Program-made: the position numbers and the translations under genes
The notes under the pieces: model-generated
Databases searched by the model: none
What the model was told of the DNA's origin: nothing
What the model saw: only the letters and a program-made list of their open reading frames with translations
NCBI GenBank assembly: GCA_003694635.1
Contig: RFKQ01000048.1
Coordinates: forward strand, 1-38,047
Source of the DNA: Planctomycetota bacterium
Lineage (GTDB): Bacteria > Planctomycetota > J132
DNA length: 38,047 nucleotides
Direction: 5' to 3'
In this document: positions 5,338 through 31,639 of the stretch, piece by piece
Numbering within the stretch: the stretch's first letter is position 1
How the letters are laid out: each line of letters opens with the position of its first letter

Positions 5338-8300
5338 ATGGGAAAAATTTACTGCAAACGCGGACTGCTGTTAAGCCTTTTATCCTTGGCGCTGCTTCTG
5401 CCACAAATCAGCGACGCCGCTCGCCTACAAGAAGGCAATGATCTAAAAAAAGGCGATAAATTCTACCAAGAAAAAAGCTATAAAAAAGCCTACCAATTCT
5501 ACCAAAAACACCTCCAGGCCTTCCCCAACCACAAACGAAACGGAGAAATTAAACTCCGCATAACAAAATGTTTATGGCGCCTTCGAGAGTACGATAAAGC
5601 CACCAACCTCGGCCTACAATACCTAGCTAAAATGCAAAAAAATATTTGGAAAGCACGCCTGTGGAAAACCCTCGCCTACATTAAAATAAAAAAACCCCAC
5701 TACGGATACAAAAAAAACGGCAAAATCACCTGGGGAAGATACGTCCAAGGCGGACGCTATATCTACTCTTATCGAGAGGATTACAGCAAAGCCGTGGAAT
5801 ACTTCCAGAAAGCAAGGATTGTCTACCTAACCCTAGCCGGACGGGAAAAATCACCCGCCAGCGACCTCATTCGAGAATGGGTAGAAGTGGATTTTGCCCT
5901 AAGCACTGTTTTGGAAAAACTCTCCGGCTACTACCCCAGAAAGCCCATCAAACTAGATTTTATCACCAAGTTTCCCAAAGAGTACTCTCCCAAATTGGCC
6001 CTGGAGAAGAGAGTTTTATTTTTGCTCATAGAGGCCGAAACCCAAGCCAAGCAAGCCAAACTGCTGGAACAAGCCGCGCAAGCCCGCTATCTTCGGGCCA
6101 TGTACTTGCATCGAACAGCTCCAAACTTCCGCCAAACTTGGCCAAAATTGCCCAAATTTCTGGACACTCTCTACCACCTAGATGAGCTCATTCGCAATTA
6201 CCCTAAAGCCAAGGTCCTCCCCCAAGCTTACATAGCCGCCGGGTTGATCCAGCAGCGGAAATATCAATTTCTTAAAGCCAAAGTCTACTTTCAAAATCTT
6301 TTAAAGAATTTTCCCCATTCCAAATGGGCCTCCGATGCGAGGTTTTATATAAGCGCTATGGAGCGTGAGTATTTAAATTTTCCCAATTTGCCCCAAAGTC
6401 TGCCCGGCCAAAAAGTGCAGATCAATATCAGCACCCGTAATATCCCCCAACTCAACCTCCAGCTCTCCAAATTCCGCCTCCACGAATTCCTCAACAGCTC
6501 CGGCCAAAAAAGCTACCAGGCAGTCCTAGGCAACCTAAGCTACCACCATCCCTTTATGTTTCTAAAATACGCCGAACCACCATTTCGCTCTTGGAAGGTC
6601 AAACTTCCCGATAAAAAGGACCATCGATGGTGCTCGCAAAAACTAACTCTCCCTTCGCTAGAAACGGGAGCTTATCTGCTAGAGGCCAAAACCCAACAGC
6701 TCGCTGTATACAAACTCTGGATCGTCAGCGATTTGGGACTGATCCAAAAAAACGGTAAGAAAAAAATCCTAGTCTACGTGGTCAACCGCATCAGCGGAGA
6801 ACCTGTCCCCGGCGCCAAGGTTTTATTCAAAGAAAAATACTCCGCCTATCATCCCCTACTCCGCCGCTACCTCCGTCACTCCAAAGTCCATACCCAAACC
6901 ACCGATAAGGACGGCATAGCCCTACAAAACCGTCAGAGCTCGAACTACTCCAGAATAGAAGTGGCGGCATGGATAGGAAATCGCTACGCCATAAGCCCCT
7001 ACGGCTCTTTTTACCAATACAGCAGCTCTTCTGGCCAAGAATATCGCTTTTATGTGATGACGGACCGCCCCATCTACCGCCCCGCTCAGAAGGTAAACTT
7101 CCGTGTCTGGCTGCGGCGCTACAAAGATGGACATTACCTCAATGCCCCCCACCAAAAAGTCAGGGTGCTGATTCACTCCCCTCGGGGCAAAAAGGTGTAT
7201 GAAAACATTTTGATGACCAATGCAAACGGCGGCTTCGCAGGGAGCTTTACCCTCTCTAAAAAGGCCGCCCTAGGAACCTACTTCATTTACTTTCGCCTCT
7301 CCAACGGCGCGTATGGATATGCCCGGGGAAACCGTTTCCGAGTGGAAGAATACAAAAAACCAGAATTTGAGGTGGAGGTGCTCGCCCCCCAAGAACAAGT
7401 GCGACTGGGAAACAAAATCCAAGCCACCATCCGCGCTAAGTACTACTTCGGCGCGCCGGTGACCAAAGCAAAAGTCTTCTACACAGTACGCCGCTACTAC
7501 TACCAACATAGCTACTACCCCTCCACACCGTGGGATTGGCTCTACGGACAAGGCTACTGGATGAGCTCCTACAGAAAATGGAGCTATCGCTACCACCGCT
7601 ACTACCGCCCCTATGACGCGGGAGAAGTGATCCTACAGGGTACGGGAAAAACCAATGAAAAGGGAGAATTCTCCCTCCAATGGGCAACCGATTCCCTCCT
7701 CAAAAAGAGAGGAAAATGGGACCACCGCTTTGTGATTCAAGCTAGAGTGGTGGACGAAAGCCGTAGGCAAATCCAAGGGATGGGCGAGGTAAAGGTCACG
7801 CGAAACTCCTTCTATGCCTACCTCTTCGCCAAACGAGGTTTTTATACCCCCGGCGATAAGGGTGAGTTTTCCCTCCACACCATGACCGCCTCCTACCAAC
7901 CTGTAGAAAGCCAAGGGATCTTAAAAATCTATGAAGTTCGCTACCACGGAGCCAAAAGCGAAAAGGAAACCCTTACCCTCGTTCGCACCTTCCCCCTCAC
8001 CACCTCCAAACAAGGAAAGGCGGAGTTCTCCTTTTCCTCCCCGAAAGCCGGACGCTTCCGACTCGTCTTCGAAACCAAGGACAAATGGCAACAACCCCTC
8101 ACCGTCTCCAAAGATATCTGGTTCGTCAATAGCCAATTCAGCGGCACCTACTACCGATTTGGACAGCTGGAAATCCTCACCGATAAGCGTTATTACAAAA
8201 AAGGTGAAGTGGCCCATGTGATGGTGAACGTGGCCCGCCCCGGAGCCGCGGTGCTGCTCACAGAAGAATTTTCTAGCCAGATTTCCCAGTACCAGGTCCT

Positions 8301-11166
8301 GCGGATACCGGGCAAATCGACCGTCTTCTCTCTTCCCATCACCCAGCGCCATGTGCCCAACTTCTTCCTCGTAGGAGAAACCCTCTACAACAACAAAATT
8401 TATAGACAAATTCGCCAAGTCTTCGTCCCTCCACAGGATAAAATCCTCCGCATTCAACTCCGCACCCATCAGCCTACCTACAGCCCCGGCCAAAAAGTCC
8501 GCCTCAACCTCGAAGTCTACGATAGCCAAAACCGCCCCGTTTCCACCGAAGTGAGCCTAGCTGTGGTGGATAAATCCATCTTCTATTTCCAATCCGAATA
8601 CGCCCCCAATGTAAAAAAGTTTTTCTACGGAAGCCTAAGAGCTCAGGGAACTTCCGCAAACCACTCCCTCAACTTCCAATCCCAAGGCGTGCTCAAAGAC
8701 TATCAACCAAGCCTAGGGTACCCAAAACATGGGCTCCCTCCAGGCTTCTACGAAGGCGGATTCGCCAACTTCGAAGGCGCTAAAATCAATGCCGCCCAAA
8801 AGCTCATGCCGCCAAGAGGACTGCTGAGACTTGGACGGACAAAATCCGCACCCTCCGCCCCTCTCAAAGAGCTAGGGAAGCGAGCCGAGCTCAAAGGAAA
8901 AGGCTTCGCCAAAGACGCCGTCGCAGCAAAAAAAACTCCCCGCCCCCGCTCCCTAGTCAAACCCCGAGTGCGGAAAAATTTCGCCGATACCGCCTACTGG
9001 AACCCCTTTGTCTTGACCGATTCCTCCGGCAAAGCCAGCGTGGAATTCACACTACCAGATAGCCTAACCACCTGGAAAATCCACGCCAAAGCCATCACAT
9101 CCCAAACCCAAGTGGGGCAAAAAACCATCGAGCGCATTAGCCGCAAAAACCTTATCCTCCGCCTACAGGCCCCCCGCTTTTTCACTGAACGGGATGAGGT
9201 GGTCCTCTCCGGAGTTGTCCACAATTATCTGCCCCAAACGAAGGAAATCCTCTGCAAAATCCTTCTCAACGGCGCCTCGGTCCAATTGCTCCAAAACGCC
9301 GAGCAAAGGATCACCCTCCCTCCCAAAGGCCATCAGCGGGTGGACTGGCGAGTGCGCATCCTAGCCCCGGGGAAGCTAAGCATCCAAATGGCAGCCCTAA
9401 GCGATACGGAAAGCGACGCCCAACAACTCTCATTTCCCGTCTATGTCCACGGTATCTCCAAACAAATCGCTAAAGGCGGGGAACTCTCCCCAAAAGAAAC
9501 CCTAGCCAAAGTGGAAATCCATCTCCCCCAAGCTATCCGAAAAGACTCCGCCCGCCTGGAAATTGTCCTCTCCCCCTCCCTCGCCTCCGCTATGCTGGAC
9601 GCCTTACCATACCTGAGCGCCTATCCCTACGGCTGCGTGGAACAGACCATGAGCCGCTTTCTACCCAGTGTAATCACCGCTGCTACGCTCAAAGAATTGG
9701 GAATGAACCTGGAGTTTCTTGCGGAAAAACGAAAGGAACTCTACACCCGCTACCTCGCTAGCGGCCTATGGCGCTACCCCCGCTCCAAAATACCCGCCCT
9801 AAAAACCGAAGAGCTAAACAAACGAGTGCAAGCTGGCCTAAAGCGCCTCTACAACTTCCAACACTCCGACGGAGGGTGGGGATGGTGGAAATATGGCCGA
9901 AGCGATATCTATATGAGCAGCTACGTCACCTTTGGCCTATACACCGCCCTCAAGGCCGGCTACTCCGTGAATAAAGCCGTCCTCACTCGAGCCACAAGGT
10001 ACCTAAAACGCTCCCTTCCCCACATCCAACACATCCACCGCCTTGCCTACACCCTCTGGGTGCTCTCCCATATCGAAAAAGCAAACCTCAAAGATCTAGA
10101 GCTGGTCTACCAGCGAAGGGATGAGCTAAATCTCCTCTCCAAAGCCCTCCTTGCCCTCACCCTCCACAACATGGGACAACAGCAAAAAGCCCAAGTCCTC
10201 TGCCGAAACCTAGAAGACTTCGCCAAAGAGGATAAATCCGGCCGCATCGCCTGGTTTGAAACCGAACAAAATGGCTGGTGGTACTGGTGGAACGATGATA
10301 TCGAAACCAACGCCTTCATCTTAAAAGCCTTCAGCCAAATCCAGCCCAAACACCACCTACTGCCCAAAATGGTACGATGGCTGCTTCAAAATCGTATCGG
10401 AGGACAATGGAAATCCACCAAAGCCACCGCCTATGTCGTCTATGCATTTAGCGACTATTTAAAAGCCACCAAAGAGCTAAACGCCAACTACACCCTAAAC
10501 ATACAACTTGGAGGAAAAAGGATCAAAACTATTCAGGTCACTCCCCAAAATGCGCTCTTTTTCGAAAACAGAATCCTACTCAAAGGCGCTGAAATCACTA
10601 CAGGAAAACAGCTTCTGACCATCGAAAAACAAGGGCAAGGCCGCCTCTACTACAGCGTCTTTTTGGAGTACTTCACCAAAGAAGAAAATCTCCAAGGCTC
10701 CGGCCACGAAATCCTGGTAAAACGGGAATATTTCAAATTGATCCCCGAACTAAAAACCAAAAAAGTGGACGGGCGTACCGTACGCTTTCAGGTGTATCAA
10801 CGCCAAAAACTAACCTCGGGCGCCACCTTAAAAAGCGGTGACCTCGTGGAAGTCCGCCTAACCATCCAAAGCAAAAATAACTACGAATACCTAGTATTCG
10901 AGGACAGAAAACCAGCTGGTATGGAAGCAGTGGCGCTAAGAAGCGGCTATACCTACGCCAATGGCCTATGCTCCAATATGGAGCTAAGGGACGAAAAAGT
11001 GGTCTTCTTCGTCAGCTGGCTCCAGCAAGGCACCCACACCATCAGCTATAAACTGCGCGCGGAAATCCCAGGCGCCTTCCACGCCCTCCCTACCTACGCA
11101 GAAGCAATGTACGCCCCCAAAGTAAAGAGCATTTCAGACGAATGGAGAGTTCAAATTCGAGACTAA
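5338..11166 (+). CDS. Bacterial alpha-2-macroglobulin with N-terminal TPR region and thioester
   Basis: A 1942-residue secreted protein. Residues 1-28 form a cleavable signal peptide with no lipobox, unlike the lipoprotein YfhM. Residues about 30-350 hold TPR-like repeats (KKGDKFYQEKSYKKAYQFYQ and similar). From about 460 onward come MG-type beta domains, including the bait-flanking YVMTDRPIYRPAQKVNFRVW motif. The thioester motif YPYGCVEQT has Cys1433, Glu1435 and Gln1436, so the CxEQ element for covalent trapping of proteases is intact. An alpha/alpha-toroid thioester domain (GGWGWW, residues about 1515-1780) and a C-terminal receptor-like beta domain follow. The family traps attacking proteases in the periplasm. 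Odd points are the fused TPR region and a segment rich in tyrosine and tryptophan at about 714-760. The start is ATG 5338 behind a GGGAG site. There is no adjacent pbpC, the usual enterobacterial partner; a MurJ-like gene sits upstream instead. Confidence 0.93.
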   Translation: MGKIYCKRGLLLSLLSLALLLPQISDAARLQEGNDLKKGDKFYQEKSYKKAYQFYQKHLQAFPNHKRNGEIKLRITKCLWRLREYDKATNLGLQYLAKMQKNIWKARLWKTLAYIKIKKPHYGYKKNGKITWGRYVQGGRYIYSYREDYSKAVEYFQKARIVYLTLAGREKSPASDLIREWVEVDFALSTVLEKLSGYYPRKPIKLDFITKFPKEYSPKLALEKRVLFLLIEAETQAKQAKLLEQAAQARYLRAMYLHRTAPNFRQTWPKLPKFLDTLYHLDELIRNYPKAKVLPQAYIAAGLIQQRKYQFLKAKVYFQNLLKNFPHSKWASDARFYISAMEREYLNFPNLPQSLPGQKVQINISTRNIPQLNLQLSKFRLHEFLNSSGQKSYQAVLGNLSYHHPFMFLKYAEPPFRSWKVKLPDKKDHRWCSQKLTLPSLETGAYLLEAKTQQLAVYKLWIVSDLGLIQKNGKKKILVYVVNRISGEPVPGAKVLFKEKYSAYHPLLRRYLRHSKVHTQTTDKDGIALQNRQSSNYSRIEVAAWIGNRYAISPYGSFYQYSSSSGQEYRFYVMTDRPIYRPAQKVNFRVWLRRYKDGHYLNAPHQKVRVLIHSPRGKKVYENILMTNANGGFAGSFTLSKKAALGTYFIYFRLSNGAYGYARGNRFRVEEYKKPEFEVEVLAPQEQVRLGNKIQATIRAKYYFGAPVTKAKVFYTVRRYYYQHSYYPSTPWDWLYGQGYWMSSYRKWSYRYHRYYRPYDAGEVILQGTGKTNEKGEFSLQWATDSLLKKRGKWDHRFVIQARVVDESRRQIQGMGEVKVTRNSFYAYLFAKRGFYTPGDKGEFSLHTMTASYQPVESQGILKIYEVRYHGAKSEKETLTLVRTFPLTTSKQGKAEFSFSSPKAGRFRLVFETKDKWQQPLTVSKDIWFVNSQFSGTYYRFGQLEILTDKRYYKKGEVAHVMVNVARPGAAVLLTEEFSSQISQYQVLRIPGKSTVFSLPITQRHVPNFFLVGETLYNNKIYRQIRQVFVPPQDKILRIQLRTHQPTYSPGQKVRLNLEVYDSQNRPVSTEVSLAVVDKSIFYFQSEYAPNVKKFFYGSLRAQGTSANHSLNFQSQGVLKDYQPSLGYPKHGLPPGFYEGGFANFEGAKINAAQKLMPPRGLLRLGRTKSAPSAPLKELGKRAELKGKGFAKDAVAAKKTPRPRSLVKPRVRKNFADTAYWNPFVLTDSSGKASVEFTLPDSLTTWKIHAKAITSQTQVGQKTIERISRKNLILRLQAPRFFTERDEVVLSGVVHNYLPQTKEILCKILLNGASVQLLQNAEQRITLPPKGHQRVDWRVRILAPGKLSIQMAALSDTESDAQQLSFPVYVHGISKQIAKGGELSPKETLAKVEIHLPQAIRKDSARLEIVLSPSLASAMLDALPYLSAYPYGCVEQTMSRFLPSVITAATLKELGMNLEFLAEKRKELYTRYLASGLWRYPRSKIPALKTEELNKRVQAGLKRLYNFQHSDGGWGWWKYGRSDIYMSSYVTFGLYTALKAGYSVNKAVLTRATRYLKRSLPHIQHIHRLAYTLWVLSHIEKANLKDLELVYQRRDELNLLSKALLALTLHNMGQQQKAQVLCRNLEDFAKEDKSGRIAWFETEQNGWWYWWNDDIETNAFILKAFSQIQPKHHLLPKMVRWLLQNRIGGQWKSTKATAYVVYAFSDYLKATKELNANYTLNIQLGGKRIKTIQVTPQNALFFENRILLKGAEITTGKQLLTIEKQGQGRLYYSVFLEYFTKEENLQGSGHEILVKREYFKLIPELKTKKVDGRTVRFQVYQRQKLTSGATLKSGDLVEVRLTIQSKNNYEYLVFEDRKPAGMEAVALRSGYTYANGLCSNMELRDEKVVFFVSWLQQGTHTISYKLRAEIPGAFHALPTYAEAMYAPKVKSISDEWRVQIRD

Positions 11167-20900: not shown

Positions 20901-22307
20901 TTATTTGGAAGTCGATGAACTTGCGTCCAAGGAAAGAATCTCTGACAATTTATTCTTGAGCTCATAAAAATTTAAGGGCTTGCTAATAAAATCGTCGGCC
21001 CCAGCAAGATAGGCCTGTTGCTTAAGCTTCAAATCATCAAAAGAAGCAGTGATGATCAGGATGGGTATCTTTGTGGTGGATGGATGCCGGCGCAGAATCT
21101 TGCAAACCTCAATTCCATTTGCATACGGAATGTAGACATCGAGCAAAATAAGTTGAGGGGGGGTTCGTAGAGCAAGTTCAATGGCTTTTTCTCCATCAGG
21201 CGCGATAAGAATTTCTCCATAGGGAAGAAGATCTTGCAAAAACTCCTGAAGAAGCTGGCAGCTGGAAGAATCATCCTCAGCCACAAGAATAAGGACTCTT
21301 TTTCGATGAGTTGGAACAGAAGAAGAGGAACACAAAATATCTTGCTGGATTTCGCCTAAAATATGAGCGATTTCTTCCACAGATTGAAAGCGTTTTTTGG
21401 GCTGAGGATGAAGGGTCTTTTCGATAATCCAATCAAATCTTTTGTCCAAGGAGGCATTCAGCTCCGATGGAAGCGGAAACCGACCTTCGGGAAGAATACC
21501 CGTAAGAGACTCGTAGAGCATTACCCCTAACGAATATATATCCGTACGGTGATCCACGTTTTTGGCATCCTTTCGCTGCTCCGGAGAAATATAACCCTGA
21601 GTTCCTAACTGCGCACCCGTTTGAGTGAGAGAGAAGGAACTTGCTTCTGGAGGAGGAAAAAGAATTCTAGCCAATCCAAAATCCGAAATCTTTACGATTC
21701 CCTTGGGATCCATCAAAATATTCGAAGGCTTGATATCCCGATGAATCACCCCACAAGAATGAGCATAGGCCAACCCGTAGCAAATCTGCAAAAAAATAGA
21801 ACAAACTTTCGAGGGAGTCAGCTTCTGAGCATCTATCCACATTCCCAATGTTGTACCTTCCACCAACTCCATCGCAAAATAGTAGATAGTATTCTCCTCA
21901 TTTTCTTCGATAAATTGCACAATATTGGGATGGCAAAGTTTGGCCAAAGCGATAGCCTCCCGTTTAAATCTGCTAATGAAATCCAAATCTTTGGTCAAAG
22001 AAGAAGGGAGGATCTTAACAGCGACAAATCTCTTTTGCTCTTCATCCCACGCTTTATAAACCTCTCCCATCCCCCCTCTCGCGATAAGCCTAAGAATCTT
22101 GTACTGAGCCAACTGAAACAGATAAGGAAAGCTCTTTCCCAGATTCTCCGGACTAAGGGATGCTCTTTTTTTAGAAGAGGGTAAAACAATAGGTTGGTGG
22201 CAAAATGGACAGGGATAGCGTGAAATGGGTTGTTTGAGATTGGCCAGATGAAGAATATAAAAATGATGGCAATGGGGGCAGTGTACTCTTAGGGTGGGTT
22301 CATTCAT
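20901..22307 (-). CDS. Hybrid Ser/Thr kinase with N-terminal zinc ribbon and C-terminal receiver domain
   Basis: A 468-residue protein from ATG 22307, with GGAG 6 nt upstream; the frame extends further but runs into the divergent promoter region. Residues 10-40 hold CPHC and CPFC, a zinc ribbon of the kind often found before planctomycete kinases. Residues 70-330 form a full Hanks kinase: ARGGMGEV, Lys98, HRDIKPSN with Asp191, DFG Asp209 and GTQGYISPEQ. Residues 336-460 form a CheY-like receiver with AEDD at 343-346, phospho-acceptor Asp390 in LILLDVYIP, Thr420 and Lys443. It could therefore take phosphate from a histidine kinase and modulate its own Ser/Thr kinase. It is transcribed divergently from a stand-alone receiver 160 nt away. 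Confidence 0.9.
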   Translation of the reverse strand: MNEPTLRVHCPHCHHFYILHLANLKQPISRYPCPFCHQPIVLPSSKKRASLSPENLGKSFPYLFQLAQYKILRLIARGGMGEVYKAWDEEQKRFVAVKILPSSLTKDLDFISRFKREAIALAKLCHPNIVQFIEENEENTIYYFAMELVEGTTLGMWIDAQKLTPSKVCSIFLQICYGLAYAHSCGVIHRDIKPSNILMDPKGIVKISDFGLARILFPPPEASSFSLTQTGAQLGTQGYISPEQRKDAKNVDHRTDIYSLGVMLYESLTGILPEGRFPLPSELNASLDKRFDWIIEKTLHPQPKKRFQSVEEIAHILGEIQQDILCSSSSVPTHRKRVLILVAEDDSSSCQLLQEFLQDLLPYGEILIAPDGEKAIELALRTPPQLILLDVYIPYANGIEVCKILRRHPSTTKIPILIITASFDDLKLKQQAYLAGADDFISKPLNFYELKNKLSEILSLDASSSTSK

Positions 22308-22343
22308 ACAAACTCCACATTTTGAGGAAATCCACTTTTTCTT

Positions 22344-22370
22344 ATTATATGAAAAATAAAATAAAATCAA
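22344..22370 (-). promoter_or_regulatory. Promoter of the hybrid kinase
   Basis: On the minus strand TTGATT (22370-22365) and a perfect TATAAT (22349-22344) are separated by 15 nt, short but usable. Initiation near 22337 would give a leader of about 30 nt containing the GGAG site before ATG 22307. The surroundings are very A+T-rich. Confidence 0.5.
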
Positions 22371-22416
22371 GAAAAAAGCCAAAATGGCTTTTCTCAAAAA
22401 AAGCATCCTGTTTTTC

Positions 22417-22445
22417 TTGAATATTTCCAAATTTTGGGGTAATAT
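22417..22445 (+). promoter_or_regulatory. Promoter of the stand-alone receiver gene
   Basis: TTGAAT (22417-22422), a 17-nt spacer and TAATAT (22440-22445). Initiation near 22452 leaves a short leader with GGAGAGG before ATG 22468. It is divergent from the kinase promoter, with only 46 nt between the two -35 elements. Confidence 0.6.
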
Positions 22446-22467
22446 ACTATCGTAGGAGAGGTTTCTA

Positions 22468-22857
22468 ATGGAGGAGTCAGATTTGACAAAAAAAATATTA
22501 CTTTTAGATGATGAGGAAATAATCGTGAAAATGCTGGAGAAAGTCTTCTCCCATTTCCACTGGAAAGTGTTTTCCGCCACTCGATGGAAAGATGCGGAGG
22601 AAATCCTTCACCAAAAAGCCATCGATATTTTGCTTTGCGATGTCAATATGCCAGAAATCAATGGTGAAGAAGCCTGCCTCCGCTCAAAACAAATCTCTCC
22701 CTCCGTAAAGGTAGTGTTCTACTCTTGCTTGGAAGAAAACGAACTGGAAATCATTGCCAAACGCTGCCAAGCAGATGGATGGATCCGAAAAGGCATGCGT
22801 CCCTTTCAGTTGGTAGAACAAGTGGATAAATTCCTTCAAAAGGACTACGCAAAATAG
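22468..22857 (+). CDS. Stand-alone response-regulator receiver protein
   Basis: A 129-residue single-domain CheY-like protein. Acidic pair Asp14-Asp15, phospho-acceptor Asp58 in LLCDVNMPEING, Ser86 in place of the usual Thr, and Lys108 in WIRKGM are all present, so phosphorylation is likely. No output domain follows. AGGAGAGG precedes the start. Its partner is not in the window. The divergent kinase-receiver hybrid is the obvious candidate for a shared pathway, for example as a phosphate sink or competing acceptor. Confidence 0.88.
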   Translation: MEESDLTKKILLLDDEEIIVKMLEKVFSHFHWKVFSATRWKDAEEILHQKAIDILLCDVNMPEINGEEACLRSKQISPSVKVVFYSCLEENELEIIAKRCQADGWIRKGMRPFQLVEQVDKFLQKDYAK

Positions 22858-22897: not shown

Positions 22898-23689
22898 ATG
22901 TCTCCCTTGCCTTCGCAAGTAGAGAACAAAACAGAAAATAGTGGTTTGTTCGTGTTTTTTGTTCTCTTTGGCAGTGGACTTATTCTTCTTGCTCTTTCTT
23001 TGTGGGGCATTTATCACTTTTTTTTTCCCATCGGCCAAAAAAAAACAAACTTCTCACAAAAACTTGCCCATAGGAAACGAACCCTTGATCAAAGAGCCAA
23101 AAACTCTCCCAATCTCCATTCTACCACCAAGCCTTCCCTCCTAAAAGAAACTAGCCACTCTCCTTCCGCAGAAAAAAAGAGCTCCATCCAACGCCCGGAG
23201 AGAAAAAATCCTCCTAAATCGTCTCTCCAAACTGCCCAAAATAAAAATCATTCCCCTCTCCCTCATCAAAAGAACGAAAAAAAACGAAGTAAACTACACA
23301 AATACTATCTTCGTCGAGCCACTGACTTACAGAAAAAAAAGAACTACCTGGTCGCTGCAAGCGCCTATCGACTAGCAGCCTACACAGCCCTCAATGGCAA
23401 CCGAAAAAAATACCTTATGACCAGATACCAACTCTACAACTACCTAAGCCGCCTTCACAACTCCCTCCGACAAAAACAATGGGCACACGTAGAGATTTTT
23501 ATCAGAAAATTGCTCTCCCTACCCCTCACCTACTCAGAACGCCTATTGGTCCAAGAAGAACTCCTGCACTGCAGAAAAACTTGGCTACACTACATTCGCA
23601 CCCAACCCCACAATCGCCACTCTCCCCTTTACCATAAAATGAAACGAATTTTCCTAAACATTTCACCCATAAAAAAACAATCTTCGTAA
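22898..23689 (+). CDS. Single-pass membrane protein with basic low-complexity linker, unknown
   Basis: A 263-residue protein. A membrane helix lies at about residues 17-43 (LFVFFVLFGSGLILLALSLW), then a Ser/Lys/Pro-rich linker of about 90 residues, then a helical, TPR-like C-terminal region (DLQKKKNYLVAASAYRLAAY). AAGGAG lies 7 nt before ATG 22898. It starts 40 nt after the receiver gene on the same strand, so they are probably co-transcribed. The architecture (anchor, spacer, TPR-like end) suggests an interaction platform; no enzyme motif is visible. Confidence 0.65.
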   Translation: MSPLPSQVENKTENSGLFVFFVLFGSGLILLALSLWGIYHFFFPIGQKKTNFSQKLAHRKRTLDQRAKNSPNLHSTTKPSLLKETSHSPSAEKKSSIQRPERKNPPKSSLQTAQNKNHSPLPHQKNEKKRSKLHKYYLRRATDLQKKKNYLVAASAYRLAAYTALNGNRKKYLMTRYQLYNYLSRLHNSLRQKQWAHVEIFIRKLLSLPLTYSERLLVQEELLHCRKTWLHYIRTQPHNRHSPLYHKMKRIFLNISPIKKQSS

Positions 23690-23891: not shown

Positions 23892-24887
23892 CTAGTTCGA
23901 GCTCGGAGGCAAAGAAGAGCGTTTGAGATAAAACTGCGCCACTTCGTTGGGAGTTAAGTACCCATCGCGATTTTTATCAATTTTGTCAAATTCCTCCTTG
24001 TGAGCGTATTCTTCCTTTGAAATGCGGCCATCACCGTCCTTATCCGCCCGCTCAAAAAGGATACGCACGCGGAACTCAAGACTATGCTCTCCTTTCATCT
24101 TGCGATGTTTTCTCCCTCTTTTCGCTAACAGCGCCTCATGAAAGGAAATAAATCCATCGTGATTTTTATCCTGTTCTTGGAAAATCTTCAAATAAATTTT
24201 TCTCAATTCTTCTCTAGAAAGGCGCTGATCTCCATCTTGATCGATATGAGAAAAGGCTCTTTTTAACTGACGGGCAGCATTTTTCAACATCCAATGGAGT
24301 TTTTTGCGCTTTTTAAGCTCATCTTTTGTAAGAAAGCCATCGCCGTTTTTGTCTAATTTTTTTAAGGTAAAATCAAGCAAAGCTAGCCATTCTTTCTGAG
24401 AGACCTTTTTATCTTTATTGGTGTCTAGATGATAGAGAATGCCAACTTTTTTTCTTATCTGTAGCTCTTTGAGCTTCTTGATTTCTCGAAAGGTGAGGTA
24501 GCCATCGCCGTTGAGGTCTAGTCTCTCAAAAAGAACGGGAGGAAGATCCAATTCCTGGGGGCTAATTCGTCCGTCGCCATCTTTATCGTAGCGTTGGAAA
24601 AAAGCAGCAAGTCGGCTCTTCTTACCTTTTTGGCGATGTTTCTTCTCTCGCTTAGCCATAAGGACTTGGATTTCTTCCAAAACCAATTTGCCATCACCGT
24701 TTTTGTCGATTTTCTCAAATAGGCGCTGGGGCCCCTTCCATTCGTCAGCTGTGATCACCCCATCCTGATTTCGATCGTGGCGGAGGAGAAATTTTTGCGC
24801 CCTGGCCTCCACTCTATCCTGAGCGCGCAAATCAGAGGCGACCAAAAACAGCGCAATCGGCAAAAAAAGAAGCATTCGAGTTTTCAT
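23892..24887 (-). CDS. Secreted protein with ten EF-hand motifs
   Basis: A 331-residue protein starting at ATG 24887, 8 nt after GGAGG; an upstream TTG overlaps that site and is rejected. Residues 1-22 form a signal peptide ending near LRAQ. The mature part is built almost entirely of EF-hand calcium loops: DRNQDGVITADE, DKNGDGKLVLEE, DKDGDGRISPQE, DLNGDGYLTFRE, DTNKDKKVSQKE, DKNGDGFLTKDE, DQDGDQRLSREE, DKNHDGFISFHE, DKDGDGRISKEE and DKNRDGYLTPNE. Eight have the full DxDG/DxNG pattern; the fifth and seventh lack the central Gly. Loops mostly come in pairs, separated by basic linkers. Secreted EF-hand proteins are common in Planctomycetota. A calcium-dependent structural or binding role is inferred. 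Confidence 0.9.
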   Translation of the reverse strand: MKTRMLLFLPIALFLVASDLRAQDRVEARAQKFLLRHDRNQDGVITADEWKGPQRLFEKIDKNGDGKLVLEEIQVLMAKREKKHRQKGKKSRLAAFFQRYDKDGDGRISPQELDLPPVLFERLDLNGDGYLTFREIKKLKELQIRKKVGILYHLDTNKDKKVSQKEWLALLDFTLKKLDKNGDGFLTKDELKKRKKLHWMLKNAARQLKRAFSHIDQDGDQRLSREELRKIYLKIFQEQDKNHDGFISFHEALLAKRGRKHRKMKGEHSLEFRVRILFERADKDGDGRISKEEYAHKEEFDKIDKNRDGYLTPNEVAQFYLKRSSLPPSSN

Positions 24888-25061
24888 AGACCATTCCTCC
24901 AATAGTTTAAAATCTCAATATATCGCCGCCATAGAGCATGGATTAGAGCTTTTGCAAAGGTGAGGTGGAAGTAAACTTTTTTTCTTAGGTCTTAAAACTT
25001 TAAGAGACTCGGATAACCCGTTAGTTTCAAGTTAAAAAATATGGTAGCAAAATAGAGGATT

Positions 25062-30319: not shown

Positions 30320-31639
30320 TTAGGGGAGATTTTTGGCTTTTTGCAGAAGAGTGTCGGTATCTTCGATAATTTCGACGTTGCTGATTTCTTTTTGGGGAAT
30401 GAAGTGGAGCTCACCTTCTTGGATTTTGACGTTTTCGAAGAAGGCTTGGGTTCCTTTGGCTTGGGGGGAGGTGGCATGCACGATATTTCCACTTAGGAAG
30501 AGGATTTGGTGTTGGGCATGATTGGGAGGGGAGATTTTTAGGATGCCTGTGCACTTTTCTGAGACCAGATATTGGCAGGCTTCAAGAGTGGAGAGAGATT
30601 GGATGGGACAGATAATCCCTTGGAGCAGAAGTTCTTTACTCGAGAAGGCCTCGGTGATTTTAGAGGGATTTTGGGTGGGCTTATGGGGAGGCGGGGTGGT
30701 CGAGGAGACGACGGTGGGGCTTTCGTGGAATTCCTCATCCGAAGTTAGATCTGGGGAAGAAGAGGGAGAGGAGGGGGAGATTTGGGGGAGGACTCGCTCG
30801 ATAGCTTGGGCCACTTCTTTCGGGGTAGAGTAGCGTTGTTCTCGTTGTTTTGCAGTCATTTTCTCGAGGATTTCTGTAATAGAGGGTGGAAGATGGGGGG
30901 CAAACTCTTGGATGGGGGGGAGGGGCTCAAAGCAGTGGGCATGGATGATGCGCATGGCGCTTTTATAGAGATAGGGAGGCCGCCCGGCGAGCATATGGTA
31001 GAGGGTGATTCCTAGAGCGTAAATATCGGCTCGGATATCCACATCGGTCTCGCCCATGGCTTGTTCGGGAGCGAGGTAGAAGGGGGTGCCGAGTATGCTG
31101 CCTTTTAGAGTAAGCCCGGCGGCGACTTGTGGACCTTCGAGTTCGCCGGAGCTAGCGGTTTTGGTCAGGCCAAAGTCTGTGATTTTTGGCACTCCTTCTT
31201 TGGTGATGAGGATATTATCCGGTTTGATATCTCGGTGGATAAAGGATTTTTCGTAGGCGCTCTGCAGGCCTTCGGCCACACCTTTGGTGATTTGGAGGGC
31301 GGTTTGGAGGGGGAGGGTGCCGTTCTTTGAGATTTTTTCTTTCAGGCTTTCTCCTTCGATGAACTCGAGGACGACGAAATACATATCGTTTTCGAGGTCG
31401 ACGCCGCAGTCGATGGCTTTGACAATATTTTTATGATCAAGGGCCATCACAGCTTGCATTTCTCGTAAGAATCGTTGGACAAAAGATTTATCTTTTGCGA
31501 TTTCTGGCAGGACCAATTTGATAGCCACGGGCATTTTCGTAGACAAGGAGGTGGCTTTTAGTACCACTCCCATGGAGCCTTCGCCGAGTTTTTCGCTGAC
31601 TTGGTATTCTTGAGATGAAAAGTTTTCCCACCAATTCAT
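30320..31639 (-). CDS. Ser/Thr protein kinase with C-terminal PATAN (DUF4388) domain
   Basis: A 439-residue cytoplasmic kinase. Glycine loop LGEGSMGVV, Lys41, HRDIKPDN with Asp137, DFG Asp155 and GTPFYLAPEQ are intact, so it is probably active. A Ser/Pro-rich linker (about 285-335) leads to a PATAN domain at about 340-425 (TGILKISPP, ILFLSGNIVHA, QAFFENVKIQEGELHF). In cyanobacteria and myxobacteria this domain is a protein-protein interaction module in response regulators and gliding regulators. GAGG lies 8 nt before ATG 31639. The gene is followed by the GroES-like gene after 22 nt. Confidence 0.9.
   Translation of the reverse strand: MNWWENFSSQEYQVSEKLGEGSMGVVLKATSLSTKMPVAIKLVLPEIAKDKSFVQRFLREMQAVMALDHKNIVKAIDCGVDLENDMYFVVLEFIEGESLKEKISKNGTLPLQTALQITKGVAEGLQSAYEKSFIHRDIKPDNILITKEGVPKITDFGLTKTASSGELEGPQVAAGLTLKGSILGTPFYLAPEQAMGETDVDIRADIYALGITLYHMLAGRPPYLYKSAMRIIHAHCFEPLPPIQEFAPHLPPSITEILEKMTAKQREQRYSTPKEVAQAIERVLPQISPSSPSSSPDLTSDEEFHESPTVVSSTTPPPHKPTQNPSKITEAFSSKELLLQGIICPIQSLSTLEACQYLVSEKCTGILKISPPNHAQHQILFLSGNIVHATSPQAKGTQAFFENVKIQEGELHFIPQKEISNVEIIEDTDTLLQKAKNLP

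Follow-up and report, generated by a model that had tools for sequence, protein, structure and literature searches.

The window analysed here is a stretch of 38,047 nucleotides that constitutes one whole contig (C109) of a planctomycete assembly (2.5 Mb in 158 contigs, about 67% complete). Near its middle, a gene for a Ser/Thr kinase joined to a receiver faces a gene for a second, lone receiver. The features of this locus are as follows.

20901..22307, minus strand: hybrid of a Hanks-type Ser/Thr kinase and a C-terminal receiver (PK-REC), 468 aa; from Pfam matches, active sites, a ribosome site and homologous N-termini
22200..22278, minus strand: N-terminal Cys4 zinc-ribbon-like segment of the hybrid (CPHC at residues 10-13, CPFC at 33-36)
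21336..22103, minus strand: Ser/Thr kinase domain of the hybrid, about residues 69-324; from Pfam and NCBIfam matches
20946..21290, minus strand: receiver domain of the hybrid, residues 340-454; from Pfam Response_reg and alignment
22308..22467: divergent intergenic region between hybrid and lone receiver, 160 bp, 28% G+C
22344..22370, minus strand: putative hybrid promoter, TTGATT (22370-22365), 15 nt, TATAAT (22349-22344); from sequence
22371..22395: inverted repeat GAAAAAAGCCA-AAA-TGGCTTTTCTC between both -35 boxes; candidate operator or hairpin
22417..22445, plus strand: putative lone-receiver promoter, TTGAAT (22417-22422), 17 nt, TAATAT (22440-22445); from sequence
22468..22857, plus strand: single-domain (CheY-like) response regulator, 129 aa, phospho-acceptor D58; Pfam Response_reg 5.6e-18
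22898..23689, plus strand: protein of 263 aa, encoded 40 nt beyond the lone receiver gene, with a single apparent membrane segment; no family found

The longest open reading frame of the hybrid would begin at GTG 22580. This start was rejected because it falls inside the facing gene and because homologs begin at the zinc ribbon. The hybrid almost certainly starts at ATG 22307, behind a GGAG ribosome site, and related planctomycete kinases start at the matching position with M-x-x-HCPxC. The zinc-ribbon-like N-terminus, which scored just under the cut-off of the Pfam family DUF7836, is common to the hybrid and the related kinases L002, L010, L011 and L012. The sequence-only reading had described the hybrid as an intact kinase joined to an intact receiver, and its coordinates were right: Pfam matched Pkinase at residues 69-275 (1.8e-47) and Response_reg at residues 340-454 (4e-21), and all catalytic residues are present. 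The kinase domain, whose nearest solved relatives are mycobacterial PknB, carries the complete Hanks-type motif set, comprising the glycine loop GGMGEV (78-83), the VAIK-type lysine K98 (in VAVK), the alpha-C glutamate E117, D191 in HRDIKPSN, the DFG aspartate D209 and the APE-like glutamate E243 in SPEQ. A linker of about 15-20 residues ties the kinase C-lobe to the receiver, in which the acid pair E344/D345, the phospho-acceptor D390, T420 and K443 are found. The protein has no obvious membrane segment and appears soluble. The same reading had identified the facing gene as a second receiver with a phospho-acceptor aspartate, which the Response_reg match and D58 corroborate. This protein consists of a receiver domain only, with no output domain (D14/D15, D58, S86, K108), so that the five conserved PF00072 active-site residues (acid pair, Asp, Thr/Ser, Lys) are present in both receivers.

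The region separating the two genes is AT-rich, with 28% G+C across its 160 bp versus 47% window-wide, and promoter-like boxes are cheap in DNA of this composition. The -35 elements of the two putative promoters do lie 46 nt apart, as first claimed. Both promoters nevertheless remain candidates, since a consensus promoter scan recovered neither at its cut-off and returned a single match that was within chance; the hybrid promoter candidate also has a short spacer of just 15 nt. Part of the gap between the -35 boxes is filled by the inverted repeat (22371-22395), in which 10 of 11 positions pair and which could be an operator. Its 14 specified core bases gave one exact match across the assembly; as that match is the only one, the repeat was rejected as the operator of a regulon.

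To place the lone receiver we compared it with other receivers of its genome. It reached no equivalog cut-off and clustered with five other lone-type receivers in a six-member clade supported at 99/94, separate from the group of the hybrid receiver, with which it shares about 20% identity. Members of this clade at C10, C100 and C135 adjoin housekeeping genes (malate dehydrogenase-like, kynureninase-like and ribH/nusB-like, as named from sequence), the member at C63 comes after a hybrid histidine kinase, and no Ser/Thr kinase neighbour was present beside any of the other clade members whose loci were read. The 263-aa gene is probably co-transcribed with the lone receiver, judging by spacing and strand, and by position its membrane protein is the likelier partner of this receiver. 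Elsewhere in the window we observed an apparently secreted protein made up nearly entirely of EF-hands (23892-24902, eight matched stretches) and a bacterial alpha-2-macroglobulin-like protein of 1942 aa (5338-11166).

The genome encodes about 70 kinases and yields 34 receiver matches, so a receiver gene adjoining a kinase gene is unsurprising. Two further kinases lie in the window itself, one with an N-terminal cyclic-nucleotide-binding domain (1341-2741) and one with a C-terminal DUF4388-like region that adjoins a TrkA-N protein (30320-31639). About ten histidine kinases are encoded in the genome, with a further histidine-kinase search match at C119 proving to be GyrB. None was found on the contig carrying the hybrid and the lone receiver in this roughly two-thirds complete assembly, and by eye none of the genome's histidine kinases has an FHA domain. 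A phosphorelay through an Hpt protein was considered and set aside, as no Hpt is detectable in the genome.

A second PK-REC protein of the same genome (C69:5926-7347) is encoded within a row of three kinase genes and has no lone receiver beside it. Three further fusions, on C32 and C145, are of the REC-DUF4388-PK-HEAT type, as established by Pfam for the C32 protein and from sequence for the C145 pair. Receiver sites are intact in the window hybrid, the C69 protein and most other PK-REC proteins, in contrast to this REC-PK trio, which has lost the acid pair; the paralogs concerned (L121:1547-5776 and, at L120, C145:23755-27909 and C145:20502-23798) carry their pseudo-receivers at the N-terminus, ahead of kinase and repeats. 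The partner of the window hybrid in the kinase tree is a kinase on C20 (99/94), which shares the zinc ribbon of the hybrid but has, where the hybrid carries its receiver, a membrane segment followed by a long, repeat-like (TPR) tail. Both sit in a clade of 12 kinases (100/99), no other member of which, among those read, has a receiver. The C69 protein pairs with a different kinase, C91 (100/98), and the group G240-G340 from other genomes occupies a third place in the tree. The separate positions of these three indicate that receivers joined kinases several times, independently; as C91 is truncated where its contig stops, it may carry a receiver too.

Initial searches with the hybrid gave no match elsewhere that spanned kinase and receiver, as kinase-only or receiver-only matches ranked higher, and a search of the genome contigs gave weak receiver matches only. 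A kinase-receiver junction profile was then applied to 391 sampled genomes, the nearest of which share only the phylum with our assembly, and it detected the PK-REC order in at least eight further genomes of this phylum; the count is a minimum, since scoring was limited to six candidates per genome. These include simple PK-REC proteins of about 450 aa (G038, G340), PK-REC-REC-HEAT (G240, G309, G125), PK-REC-REC (G112, G303) and PK-REC-CheB (G122). At L182 (1064-3085), a kinase-receiver-CheB methylesterase fusion adjoins a REC-CheB gene, a case in which an output of the chemotaxis type is attached to a Ser/Thr kinase. The PK-REC order also occurs beyond the phylum, on a Chloroflexota plasmid, in a protein with a LuxR HTH whose gene follows, at a distance of 45 nt, one annotated as a histidine kinase. 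In G240 and G125 the hybrid gene stands immediately upstream of a gene for an FHA-GAF-PAS-HisKA-HATPase histidine kinase, and in G240 the two genes are joined by an ATGA overlap. The corresponding loci (L180:967-6077 and L183:1026-5969) have a pentapeptide-repeat gene on the opposite side of the PK-REC-REC-HEAT gene, a neighbour also seen at L181. FHA domains bind phosphothreonine, and the L180/L183 arrangement is possibly a conserved two-way signalling cassette. The other PK-REC loci read comprise the C69 locus, eight loci from further genomes of the phylum and the one on the Chloroflexota plasmid, and a lone receiver divergent from the hybrid was absent from all of them. Within this range, in which the other genomes are same-phylum at closest, the pair is not conserved, the outcome that had been named beforehand as refuting it.

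From sequence comparison, the best reading of the hybrid is a bridge that would carry two-component signals into Ser/Thr signalling. Of the original interpretation, the part that comparison supports is a kinase with two-component input, favoured by the intact receivers and the histidine kinase neighbours; it does not support the divergent pair as a unit. We estimate a probability of roughly 60% that the hybrid is a soluble PknB-like kinase whose receiver takes its input from a remote histidine kinase, and that the lone receiver is a separate regulator and a neighbour only. The receiver would then serve as the sensory input of the hybrid, replacing the membrane or repeat region of its nearest relatives. 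D390 would receive its phosphate from a histidine kinase whose gene lies in another part of the genome, and the resulting change in the receiver would raise or lower the Ser/Thr phosphorylation of downstream proteins. The lone receiver would act as a CheY-like regulator with its own paralog family, possibly under a shared regulator with the hybrid; its probable partners are another (hybrid) histidine kinase and the membrane protein whose gene follows its own. In G240 and G125, which offer the best clue to the mechanism, the adjoining histidine kinase would feed the receiver of the hybrid and may be recruited through Thr phosphorylation by it; by analogy, the window hybrid would be a kinase with two-component input whose donor lies elsewhere. 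For the window hybrid we infer that phosphate is transferred, that this alters kinase activity and that a partner histidine kinase exists.

The arrangement of the locus itself invites a different account, in which one histidine kinase serves both receivers, the lone one acts as a sink or competitor, and a single regulator binds at the shared dyad. The genes are adjacent and divergent over 160 bp, the dyad lies exactly between -35 boxes that are close together, and both receivers are intact. We consider this account unlikely: no such pair occurs at the other PK-REC loci read, the other members of the lone-receiver clade have no kinase-hybrid neighbours, and the dyad core occurs only once in the genome. 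The comparison thus gives no support for the two divergent genes as one functional unit, and the suggested competition of both receivers for one histidine kinase is weakened by their low identity (about 20%), their placement in different groups and the lack of a histidine kinase on the contig.

Signals might also flow in the reverse direction, with the Ser/Thr kinase phosphorylating its own or the lone receiver on Ser/Thr and so tuning two-component output, in the manner of PrkC-WalR and StkP-ComE. Modification of response regulators by Ser/Thr kinases is established (PMC4478028, PMC6213207, PMC11097640), and the FHA histidine kinases adjoining related hybrids suggest that a histidine kinase reads phospho-Thr. 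This direction is nonetheless improbable as the main explanation, as it leaves unexplained why the receiver keeps a full Asp-phosphorylation site, and this genome's histidine kinases lack a visible FHA member. A receiver without control over its kinase might either be phosphorylated by it or serve localisation. Very unlikely, in our judgement, is domain shuffling with little function, in which a kinase captured a receiver that is wired to no histidine kinase yet. The abundance of kinases and receiver matches in the genome and the degenerate receivers of its three other receiver-kinase fusions would fit such an event, but the hybrid receiver, unlike that trio, keeps all its catalytic residues, and PK-REC proteins with histidine kinase neighbours recur in other lineages. 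The reading of the hybrid as a kinase with remote two-component input can be extended, as a tentative proposal that we hold to be somewhat doubtful, to planctomycete-like bacteria in general. These may have repeatedly turned Ser/Thr kinases into two-component outputs by exchanging a sensory tail for a receiver, some with a co-encoded FHA histidine kinase that would read the phospho-Thr of the kinase and close a two-way circuit, and the window hybrid would be one independent instance.

With both sites intact in a compact soluble protein of 468 aa, the direct switching of a Ser/Thr kinase by a receiver would become testable in vitro, and the relatives beside a histidine kinase could reveal the connection between the two main phosphorylation systems of bacteria in genomes rich in kinases. 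The literature searched contained no characterised bacterial PK-REC protein, which is not proof of absence. Planctomycete Ser/Thr kinases were surveyed in 2024, and 105 groups of accessory domains, scattered in their distribution, are listed there (PMC11032199). The action of Ser/Thr kinases on response regulators, well known from other systems (PMC6213207, PMC4478028), runs in the direction opposite to the one proposed here.

Among known proteins, the PknB-type Hanks kinases share the catalytic domain, while the hybrid has a receiver instead of PASTA domains or a membrane segment. It is not a PASTA kinase of the PknB/Stk1 family, as it scored 265.7 bits, from the kinase domain only, versus the curated NCBIfam cut-off of 450 bits. 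The lone receiver resembles CheY/DivK-like regulators in being a single receiver without output, and differs in belonging to its own same-genome clade. The PK-REC-REC-HEAT proteins (L180, L181, L183) share the kinase-receiver core and the intact aspartate, but have an extra receiver and HEAT repeats and fall in a separate kinase clade; in L180 and L183 their genes are followed by one for an FHA histidine kinase. The plasmid-encoded protein of Candidatus Chlorohelix allophototropha (WP_341472197.1) has the kinase-receiver order of the hybrid and differs in its NarL-like receiver, which is followed by a LuxR-type HTH. Rim15, a fungal Greatwall-like protein kinase, likewise has a C-terminal receiver, whose role has apparently not yet been studied and which lacks the aspartate in most ascomycetes (PMC8510515). 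Only the domain order is common to the two, as Rim15 is a eukaryotic AGC/Greatwall-type kinase with other domains whereas the hybrid is bacterial and PknB-like and has kept the aspartate. The fusion of kinase and receiver is already known from Rim15, and the window hybrid adds an instance of this known, biochemically little-studied architecture.
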